NCBI RefSeq assembly: GCF_000828675.1
Contig: NZ_AP014510.1
Span: forward strand, 1,693,413-1,757,412
Direction: 5' to 3'
Origin: Thermotoga profunda AZM34c06
Lineage (GTDB): Bacteria > Thermotogota > Thermotogae > Thermotogales > DSM-5069
Length of the DNA stretch: 64,000 bases
Shown here: one piece after another, positions 18,275-46,774 of the stretch
Numbering within the stretch: the stretch's first letter is position 1
How the letters are laid out: every line of letters starts with the position of its first letter
The notes under the pieces: model-generated
Databases searched by the model: none
Told to the model about the DNA's origin: nothing
What the model saw: only the letters and a program-made list of their open reading frames with translations
Position numbers and translations under genes: made by a program

Positions 18275-18851
18275 AATAGGTATCTTTGGTGGTTCTTTCA
18301 ATCCACCACACGTTGGGCATCTGATCGTGTCCCAATATGTAGTGGATATCTTATCGCTTGATTTGTTGTACATCGTACCAACGTATATCCCACCACATAA
18401 ACCAAATGACCTTGCACCCTTTGAACTCAGATTCGAATGGTGTAAAATAACCTTTGAAAATCCAAACGTATCGATCAGTGACTATGAAAAAACTCGTCAG
18501 GGTATCTCTTATTCTCTGTATACTGTTTTGTATTTTAGCCAACTTCACCATACGAAACCTTATTTCATAACCGGCGAAGATTCTCTGTCATATATTCAAA
18601 ACTGGTACAGGTACAGAGATCTTTTGGAAAATTGTCATTTTGTAGTCTATCCAAGGTATTGTAACAAACCATACGAAGAACAAGCAAAAAATGTGCTTAA
18701 AGAACTATACGATAACATCATCTTCTTACAAGCCCCTTTGATTCAGATATCGGCAAGCGATATAAGAAAAAGAATCAAAGAAAGAAAATCAATCAAAGGC
18801 ATGGTTCATCCCCAAATAGAAGAGCAGGTGATAGAATATTATTCACTTTGA
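18225..18851 (+). CDS. nadD: Nicotinate-nucleotide adenylyltransferase
   Basis: NadD makes nicotinate adenine dinucleotide from NaMN and ATP in NAD synthesis. The nucleotidyltransferase motif GGSFNPPHVGHL and the late ISASDIRKRI motif are clear. The gene starts inside the end of obg: ATG at 18225 follows a GGGGGC stretch by seven bases, but TTG at 18258 is also possible and would give a more typical N-terminus of about 8 residues before the beta strand. Protein of about 208 or 197 residues. Confidence 0.95.
   Translation: METQCGLDNTVLNSKNRIGIFGGSFNPPHVGHLIVSQYVVDILSLDLLYIVPTYIPPHKPNDLAPFELRFEWCKITFENPNVSISDYEKTRQGISYSLYTVLYFSQLHHTKPYFITGEDSLSYIQNWYRYRDLLENCHFVVYPRYCNKPYEEQAKNVLKELYDNIIFLQAPLIQISASDIRKRIKERKSIKGMVHPQIEEQVIEYYSL
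18826..18831 (+). promoter_or_regulatory. Ribosome binding site AGGTGA before ATT start of dus
   Basis: AGGTGA lies inside the end of nadD, six bases before an in-frame ATT (18838) and nine before a second ATT (18841). An in-frame TAG at 18832 bounds the frame upstream, and no ATG, GTG or TTG occurs in it before ATG 18880. Confidence 0.7.
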
Positions 18852-44385: not shown

Positions 44386-45180
44386 GTGTGGTATCCAGGA
44401 CACATGGCAAAAGCTTCGAGAGTTATTGAAAATCTCAAAAAGTACATTGATTTAGTCGTTGAGCTATTGGATGTGAGAGCTCCAGTTGCAACTCGCGCTT
44501 ATAGCCGGAACCCGATCAAAGCGAAAAAGAGCGTTATAGTCCTCACGAAATCCGATTTGGCTCCAGATGGCGAAGTGGTTCGTTGGAAAGAATTCTTTGA
44601 AAAATCAGATGAGCCTGTATTTGTTTTCAATAAAAACACTAATAGAGAGAAAGTTGTCGAATTCATAGCAAAACACGTCCAAAGAAATGGTTTTGTCATA
44701 GTCGTAGGGGTTCCAAATGTTGGAAAATCAACCTTCATAAACAAATTGAAAGGGACCAGATCGGCTCAGGTTGGTGCAATGCCTGGTATAACAAAAGGCT
44801 TGCAGTGGTTTTCTGTTGCTGATAAATTCAGAGTATTGGATACACCTGGACTACTCCTGCCAAATCTTTGGAGCGTCGATCTGGCTGCTAAACTCTTGTT
44901 GGTTGGGAGTCTCACTGTAGATATGGTACCACCAAAGGTTTTACAGAGAGCCTTCGAGATATACGCCAAAGCTGTTGGAGTTACAGATGTGGATTTGGAA
45001 AATTATCTTGAAAAATATGCATTGGAAAAAAAGATGATCATCAAGGGAGGTCAACCAGACAAGAAGAGGGCTTTAGTAAACTTCTTTAATTCAATCGCTC
45101 AGGGAAAAATCGGAAAATTCATATTTGAATACCCACAGGAGGCGATAGATTATCAAAGCGATCGTCTATCTACCACTTGA
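44386..45180 (+). CDS. rbgA: Ribosome biogenesis GTPase RbgA (YlqF)
   Basis: 264 residues, a circularly permuted GTPase: the G4 motif TKSD (near residue 53) comes before G1 GVPNVGKST (about 109-117) and G3 DTPG. The N-terminal WYPGHMAKA is the hallmark of YlqF/RbgA, which acts late in 50S assembly. A C-terminal helical domain follows. Start GTG 44386, six bases after AAGGAGG. The next gene begins inside its 3' end. Confidence 0.95.
   Translation: MWYPGHMAKASRVIENLKKYIDLVVELLDVRAPVATRAYSRNPIKAKKSVIVLTKSDLAPDGEVVRWKEFFEKSDEPVFVFNKNTNREKVVEFIAKHVQRNGFVIVVGVPNVGKSTFINKLKGTRSAQVGAMPGITKGLQWFSVADKFRVLDTPGLLLPNLWSVDLAAKLLLVGSLTVDMVPPKVLQRAFEIYAKAVGVTDVDLENYLEKYALEKKMIIKGGQPDKKRALVNFFNSIAQGKIGKFIFEYPQEAIDYQSDRLSTT
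45137..45142 (+). promoter_or_regulatory. Ribosome binding site AGGAGG before ATT start of TPR gene
   Basis: A perfect AGGAGG lies inside the end of rbgA, six bases before ATT at 45149. An in-frame TAG at 45146 ends the frame just upstream, and the next canonical start in frame is TTG 45227. Confidence 0.8.
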
Positions 45181-46774
45181 TCCCGAAAAGGCAAAGAAAT
45201 CAAACCTTCCAATAAAATTACCTATATTGGTTGAGGATTTTCCAACGATAGTGGATATGAATCAAATACCAATTGATATAGTGATTCGTGGTCTCGAAGC
45301 GCAGTATGGATTGTCAAAAGATCCATATTATGGATCTTACCTTGCATATTTCTACTACGAAAAGGTTAAAATTTCACTCAACAACGAGGATTTAAGATCT
45401 GCCGAGAGTTGGTTGGAAAAGGCCTCGGAATTTGGTAAGGATTACAGATATGATTTTTTCAAAGGATTGATCGCATCAAAATTAAAAGATTACGAGTTAG
45501 CGGAAGTTTTCCTCAGATCAAGCGTATCAAAAAATGAAAAATTCGTGTTGGGACATTATGAACTTGGAAATATCCTCAGGGCGAAGAAGGAACTCGAAGA
45601 TGCGATCTTAGAATATCAAAAAGCCTTTGAACTGGACAGAAATTTTTTACTTCCTCTTTTGAGAATAGGTGATTGTTATATGGAACTCGGTGAAATACGA
45701 CAAGCCTGTGATTTCTATCAAACACTGACACAACTCGACCCTGAATTTTCTCAAGCCTACTCGAGATTGGGTGTGGCTTGTAATATGCTTCAAAGATATG
45801 AATATGCTGAAAAATCATTGAAAAAGGCACTTGAACTTGAGCCTGATGACTCAGACACTGCATTTAACCTTGCACATACTCTTTCCAGATCAGGAAAACA
45901 CTTTGAAGCCATGAATATTCTCAAGCAACTCGCTGATAAAGAACCTGAGAACATTTCTTTTTTGAATGAATACGCCTTGACATTGAGACGATTGGGATTT
46001 TATGAGCAAGCAAAACAGGTAATAGACAAAGCCAGACAGATCAGCGATGATCAAATGATAATGTACAATCAAGTGTTGTTGACATTTTTTATTGATAAAA
46101 ACGGAGCTCATTCATTACTCAATAGTCTCTCAAAAGATTACAGAGAAAAAATCGACGAACTGGTCTTTTTCTTAAATGAATGGGATGGTTCTGTGATCAT
46201 TCCAGATTTCATAAGTCAGAAAGTGAAGATGGTAAGATCCTGTATGAGTGGATCAAGTTTTGATATACGCAAATTAGCACATTTTCTCGAAGATGGAGAT
46301 AGAATCGAGGCGCTTAGAGATGGATTTTTCCCATTTCAAGATATGGTTGTAGATACTGTAAAGTGGCTTGATATAATCGTAGCAATCATATTGGCGAGCT
46401 CGAAAGATCCATTTGAAATGGAGAAGAACATTACAAAAACAGCCGTCGCAATATATGGAAGTGGCATAATGCTTGCCGTTGCTATTGGGTTGATAAGACT
46501 CTTTTTCCACGTAAAAATAAACGAGAAATTCGATCTCTCAGGTTTTATAAATGATGTTGTACCAGATCTCCAGGAATATCATTGGAGCTTTGCCAAGAGA
46601 GTCTCTCGACTTGAGGAAGAAAGCTTTTCCTTTGAAGACATCAACTTTAATGTTGATAAAGGAAGTGACTTTTTTATAGAGCTTCTAAAGGCACTGTCCA
46701 CAGAAATCACCGAAGGTATCAACAACAAATTCTTCAAAGATATATATTCAATCTTTCGAATGCAGTGGAGGTGA
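45149..46774 (+). CDS. TPR-repeat protein, probable ATT start
   Basis: 541 residues if read from ATT 45149. The first 26 codons encode IIKAIVYLPLDPEKAK and so on, well-formed coding sequence that follows AGGAGG by six bases; the first canonical start (TTG 45227) has no ribosome site. TPR hairpins run from about 60 to 300 (for instance VLGHYELGNILRAKKELEDAILEYQKAFEL and AYSRLGVACNMLQRYEYAEKSLKKALEL). The C-terminal 200 residues are helical with one hydrophobic segment (IMLAVAIGLIRLFF). No partner is identified. Overlaps rbgA by 32 bases and precedes apgM by 4. Confidence 0.85.
   Translation: MIKAIVYLPLDPEKAKKSNLPIKLPILVEDFPTIVDMNQIPIDIVIRGLEAQYGLSKDPYYGSYLAYFYYEKVKISLNNEDLRSAESWLEKASEFGKDYRYDFFKGLIASKLKDYELAEVFLRSSVSKNEKFVLGHYELGNILRAKKELEDAILEYQKAFELDRNFLLPLLRIGDCYMELGEIRQACDFYQTLTQLDPEFSQAYSRLGVACNMLQRYEYAEKSLKKALELEPDDSDTAFNLAHTLSRSGKHFEAMNILKQLADKEPENISFLNEYALTLRRLGFYEQAKQVIDKARQISDDQMIMYNQVLLTFFIDKNGAHSLLNSLSKDYREKIDELVFFLNEWDGSVIIPDFISQKVKMVRSCMSGSSFDIRKLAHFLEDGDRIEALRDGFFPFQDMVVDTVKWLDIIVAIILASSKDPFEMEKNITKTAVAIYGSGIMLAVAIGLIRLFFHVKINEKFDLSGFINDVVPDLQEYHWSFAKRVSRLEEESFSFEDINFNVDKGSDFFIELLKALSTEITEGINNKFFKDIYSIFRMQWR

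Follow-up and report, generated by a model that had tools for sequence, protein, structure and literature searches.

Comparative sequence analysis indicates that a TPR protein gene of the window, i.e. the whole stretch of 64,000 nucleotides analysed here, very probably starts on a near-cognate codon within positions 45149-45154, the bulk of this confidence being placed on ATC 45152. A strong Shine-Dalgarno sequence (SD) followed at one fixed codon by AUA, AUC or AUU (AUH) appears to be kept across most of the Thermotogales. The habit of starting on AUH is rare, is best known from infC, the gene of initiation factor IF3, and is overlooked by gene-finding programs. To our knowledge, few bacterial genes keep a non-canonical start over a long evolutionary distance, and these are mainly infC.

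The sequence around the start site is CCCACAGGAGGCGATAGATTATCAAAGCGATCGTC, and the features discussed are collected in Table 1. A preliminary description of this region had placed the start on ATT 45149, six bases after a perfect AGGAGG and directly behind an in-frame TAG, and had reported that the first canonical codon, TTG 45227, has no ribosome site; all these coordinates are correct, as is the lack of an SD at the TTG. The latter is the first in-frame ATG, GTG or TTG, 26 codons downstream of ATT 45149. Read from this ATT, the open frame has 541 codons (45149-46771) and its stop runs to 46774. The best NCBIfam match of the overlapping rbgA-like gene is TIGR03596 (YlqF; E 2.9e-55), with a score of 187.6 bits that lies below the cut-off of 208.2.

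Table 1. Features at the TPR gene start and putative near-cognate starts of other genes. Positions are those of the window, except where a locus is named.
Feature	Position	Strand	Remark
rbgA/YlqF-like GTPase gene	44386..45180	+	29-nt overlap with the TPR gene, in a different frame
SD AGGAGG of the TPR gene	45137..45142	+	seen in the sequence; inside the 3' end of the rbgA-like gene
In-frame TAG	45146..45148	+	rules out any upstream start in the TPR frame
ATT, residue 1, start proposed previously	45149..45151	+	spacing of 6 nt from AGGAGG; varies among orthologues
ATC, residue 2, most likely start codon	45152..45154	+	9 nt after AGGAGG; AUH, AUG or GUG in relatives
TPR protein gene	45152..46774	+	540 codons and stop, counted from ATC
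TTG, first canonical codon in frame, probably not the start	45227..45229	+	no SD match
dus, putative start ATT	18838..18840	+	in register with AGGTGAT 18826-18832, at a spacing of 9 nt
hisS, putative start CTG behind SD	L171 2847	+	CTG in G000, G001 and G003
smpB, putative start CTG behind SD	L162 15608	-	CTG in G000 and G001
trmFO, putative start CTG behind SD	L163 14890	-	CTG in three g1 genomes; TTG in g3
Prepilin gene, putative start ATA	L163 3199	+	ATA only here; ATG at that codon in the family's other genomes
OmpR/PhoB-type response regulator gene, putative start AUA/AUC/AUU	L150 6637	-	AUH in at least 9 of 10 family genomes examined

The 26 codons preceding the TTG had been described as good coding sequence, and substitution patterns agree with this. 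By Nei-Gojobori counts, pN/pS within the genus is 0.15 for codons 3-26, 0.20 for codons 27-50 and 1.31 for codons -11 to 0; the three values are 0.12, 0.13 and 1.07 within genera, and 0.21, 0.27 and 1.07 across the order. These values point to protein-level selection on the codons before TTG 45227 that is as strong as downstream, and all the comparative evidence argues that this stretch is translated. Residues 2-26 of the frame are furthermore conserved among Thermotogales orthologues, with a strongly conserved N-terminal motif, xIKAIVYLPL[DK]PEKAKxxNLPxKLPV. All 61 relatives have an orthologue, as do 99 of 103 Thermotogota genomes, and the alignments begin at residue 2-5 of the frame. Orthologues starting at the TTG position, which the preliminary description had named as evidence that would refute its proposal, were not seen among those examined. 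Outside the order, most orthologues have a canonical codon (ATG, GTG or TTG) at or close to the start proposed here. The position of the coding boundary, at which pN/pS changes sharply, is shown at the level of sequence.

The encoded protein is composed of short N-terminal beta strands, a TPR array and a C-terminal helical part, and PF07719, PF00515, PF13181 and other families score above their gathering thresholds. Its AlphaFold2 model (mean pLDDT 92.6) predicts a helical superhelix, with residues 4-8 and 22-26 (counted from ATC) as beta strands, and TPR folds were matched in the PDB. Searches for a function by sequence, fold and family returned generic TPR scaffolds only, and a search of a plasmid collection gave no match.

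When 45 Thermotogales are compared, codon 2 (ATC 45152 in the window) is ATA in 23, ATC in nine, ATT in five, ATG in three, GTG in two, CTA in two and AAA in one. It is thus AUA, AUC or AUU in 37 of the 45 and AUN in 40, and the genomes with CUA (twice) or AAA (once) offer an upstream ATG or GTG, at a distance of three codons or one codon. The GTG is that of genus g14, where it lies behind an SD, AAAGGAG, at a spacing of 8 in L048; in genus g12 codon 2 is an ATG without SD, within an ATGA overlap. Codon 1 varies freely among orthologues (AAG, AAA, AGT, CTT, AAC, GGT and others). Fourteen genomes, from seven genera (g1, g3, g4, g5, g8, g10 and g11) and three families, have no ATG, GTG or TTG in the interval from the in-frame stop to codon 5 (L002, L006-L008, L015, L027-L031 and L037-L040, the window's genome included); this absence and the conservation of SD and AUH are read directly from the alignment. 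Most genomes of families f1 and f3, and Thermotoga as well, carry an SD that precedes codon 2 by 7-9 nt. The SD is absent in g7, g12 and g13, in all of which a canonical codon is present, and in the Fervidobacterium-like g6 a GTG stands inside the SD. One of the fourteen, L015 (Thermotoga-group, match beginning at 1501), has its ATGA-overlap ATG out of frame and an in-frame TGA just before CAA GGT ATA, so that only CAA, GGT or ATA could start the gene.

The conserved isoleucine could be an ordinary hydrophobic residue where another start exists, but not in the fourteen genomes devoid of canonical codons. Codon usage at residue 2 is similar to that at residue 5, an ordinary isoleucine position, and codon usage alone therefore does not prove initiation. 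Two groups of genomes could use canonical upstream starts. In Thermotoga proper, six of seven genomes possess, as part of an ATGA overlap, an ATG that is in frame and lies five codons upstream but lacks an SD. In G001, G003 and G002, an ATG, ATG and GTG, respectively, stand at the codon occupied here by TAG (codon 0), 3 nt behind AGGAGG. G001-G003 may nevertheless use ATC too, because a spacing of 3 nt was seen in none of the 119 AGGAGG-start pairs of the sampled part of the window's genome.

The two candidate codons and the readings that dispense with both have to be weighed together. If the gene started on ATT 45149, as previously proposed, AUC 45152 would simply encode residue 2. Six nucleotides after AGGAGG is a spacing that this genome permits (6 nt in 15 of the same 119 pairs, 7 in 41, 8 in 33 and 9 in 18), so that spacing alone cannot choose between ATT 45149 and ATC 45152; moreover, ATT is itself an AUH codon, and G003 has the same one. 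Codon 1 is, however, AGT in G001, CTT in G002 and AAG in G006, whereas codon 2 is the constant one and is AUG or GUG in sister genera. For these latter reasons ATC 45152 is the likely start; ATT is possible but less likely than ATC, and on the whole we regard it as improbable. What stands of the earlier claim is thus a non-canonical start upstream of TTG 45227, which is strongly supported, the exact codon being probably off by one; the order-wide extent of such a start could not be seen from one window.

Translation from TTG 45227 or from another internal canonical codon, with the upstream codons untranslated, is what gene finders limited to ATG, GTG and TTG would choose. It is very unlikely, given the absence of an SD, the low upstream pN/pS (0.12-0.21) and the confident structural model, in which such a start would delete strand 4-8, which is conserved, together with the greater part of strand 22-26. 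Even less credible is a TPR gene without a start of its own, entered by ribosomal frameshifting from rbgA. Although the two genes overlap in different frames here, the upstream neighbour varies: f1 has rbgA, f2 has a different long gene whose end falls at the start or immediately ahead of it, and f3 differs from both and includes cases without rbgA overlap. In f2 and f3 the upstream gene is either not rbgA or stops ahead of or within the SD, and in g11 it ends on a TAG that overlaps the SD. Codon 2 is retained despite these different upstream genes, and so, for the most part, is the SD. Since AUH persists while the upstream gene differs between families, a frameshift fusion is excluded, and since it persists without rbgA upstream, the rbgA overlap does not account for the unusual codon. 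A sequencing error as the source of the non-canonical start was likewise rejected, as this start is seen in many genomes.

Near-cognate starts in this genome were surveyed in a sample of 864 kb comprising 782 ORFs. Of 32 SDs for which the ORF offers no canonical codon within reach, 12 have AUH or CUG at 6-10 nt, compared with 11.5 percent when motifs are permuted (P 1.3e-4), and in the subset with a GGAG or GAGG core the count is 7 of 17 (P 0.0015). Other genes of this genus also appear to begin on AUH or CUG, generally at codons where AUG, GUG or UUG is found in relatives, and comparison of orthologues bears this out for several of them (Table 1). In particular, dus, a second case within the window, has AGGTGAT, an in-frame TAG and then AAT ATT ATT (18826-18843), without a canonical start; the putative start is ATT in four g1 genomes, G001-G003 included, and ATG stands at the same codon in g3. 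Elsewhere, hisS has TTG or GTG at or next to the start codon, and smpB starts on GTG or ATG. Further candidates are an ABC permease gene (ATA; L175 18063, +), a NUDIX-like gene (ATA; L155 14647, +), a transporter-like gene (CTG; L143 2253, -) and a membrane protein gene (CTG; L140 16523, +). Samples of G021 and G012, which both carry AUH at codon 2 of the TPR gene, showed no significant near-cognate excess, which argues against order-wide laxness. When six genes (infC, the TPR gene, dus, hisS, smpB and trmFO) were compared order-wide, AUH was order-wide only in infC and the TPR gene, and the near-cognate starts of dus, hisS, smpB and trmFO were lineage-limited. An odd initiator tRNA was considered as a source of lax initiation and rejected: the anticodon arm of tRNA-fMet is ordinary (GGG CTCATAA CCC) in 10 of 11 family genomes.

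We propose that the strong SD inside the end of the upstream rbgA would position the ribosome, and that fMet-tRNA would pair with AUC through the first two codon bases. Translation of the TPR protein would thereby begin on a near-cognate codon of the AUH type, AUC 45152 being the most likely one; its use by ribosomes is inferred from the sequence anatomy. AUH might be kept because it holds expression low and IF3-sensitive, as in infC; for the TPR gene, both the low output and the IF3 dependence are inferred from precedents, infC among them. A near-cognate start that is real but neutral, due to lax start selection or to the rbgA overlap and devoid of a regulatory role, competes with this supposed role of IF3 and not with the start itself, and we consider it a substantial possibility, though not the favoured one. 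It is in line with the AUH and CUG starts of several unrelated housekeeping genes in the survey above and with the at least 4-5 changes of TPR start state on the tree (built from 128 residues). Against it, AUH reappears in three deeply diverged families, even though a single third-base change would give AUG; G021 and G012, with AUH at the TPR codon, show no significant general excess; and the f3 cases are free of rbgA overlap. Either AUH is an old state that has been replaced several times by canonical codons at differing positions (-3, -1, 0, 1 and 2), or it arose repeatedly. More tentatively still, and rather doubtfully, the Thermotogales might possess a small IF3-sensitive AUH regulon (infC and the TPR gene order-wide), and the window's genus might have extended AUH and CUG starts to about 1 percent of its genes, including hisS, smpB, trmFO and dus, so that standard annotation would be systematically wrong there.

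The TPR gene would be a second gene, beside infC, that keeps a non-canonical start through three families of a thermophilic order, and why selection would retain an inefficient start becomes directly testable. Where annotation allows no start but AUG, GUG and UUG, conserved N termini would be truncated in this group, those of essential genes included. A re-annotation of T. maritima found 370 genes with differing lengths, mostly a matter of start assignment, and no mention of non-canonical starts was found in its text (PMC3636130).

Both infC and the TPR gene have AUH behind a strong SD, conserved across taxa and in the same genomes. In this order, infC lacks canonical codons near its 5' end and has GGAGG-type SDs followed at a fixed codon by AUC (25 of 28, by reading of the alignment) or AUA (3 of 28), whereas the third base is more variable in the TPR gene. 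Furthermore, infC encodes a translation factor, a role not known for the TPR protein, and direct autoregulation is not implied. In E. coli, infC and pcnB are precedents for inefficient near-cognate starts with low or IF3-tuned output (PMC9410913). The AUU start of pcnB (Binns and Masters 2002, as cited in PMC9410913 and PMC13009471) is, like that of the TPR gene, found outside infC, but in a different gene and phylum, and the conservation of the TPR start has been followed through an order. S. aureus ccpN, cvfC1 and citZ have AUA or AUU starts with extended SDs, from which expression in poor medium reached about 10 percent of the AUG level (PMC13009471, Nat Commun 2026). They resemble the TPR gene in combining a non-canonical start with an extended SD, and ccpN and cvfC1 are conserved; they are, however, different genes, and their starts were demonstrated by Ribo-Ret and reporters, whereas that of the TPR gene, from a thermophilic phylum, is proposed from comparative sequence. 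As conserved non-canonical starts are thus known (infC, pcnB, ccpN), the TPR gene appears to be a new member of this group, one whose conservation is unusually wide.
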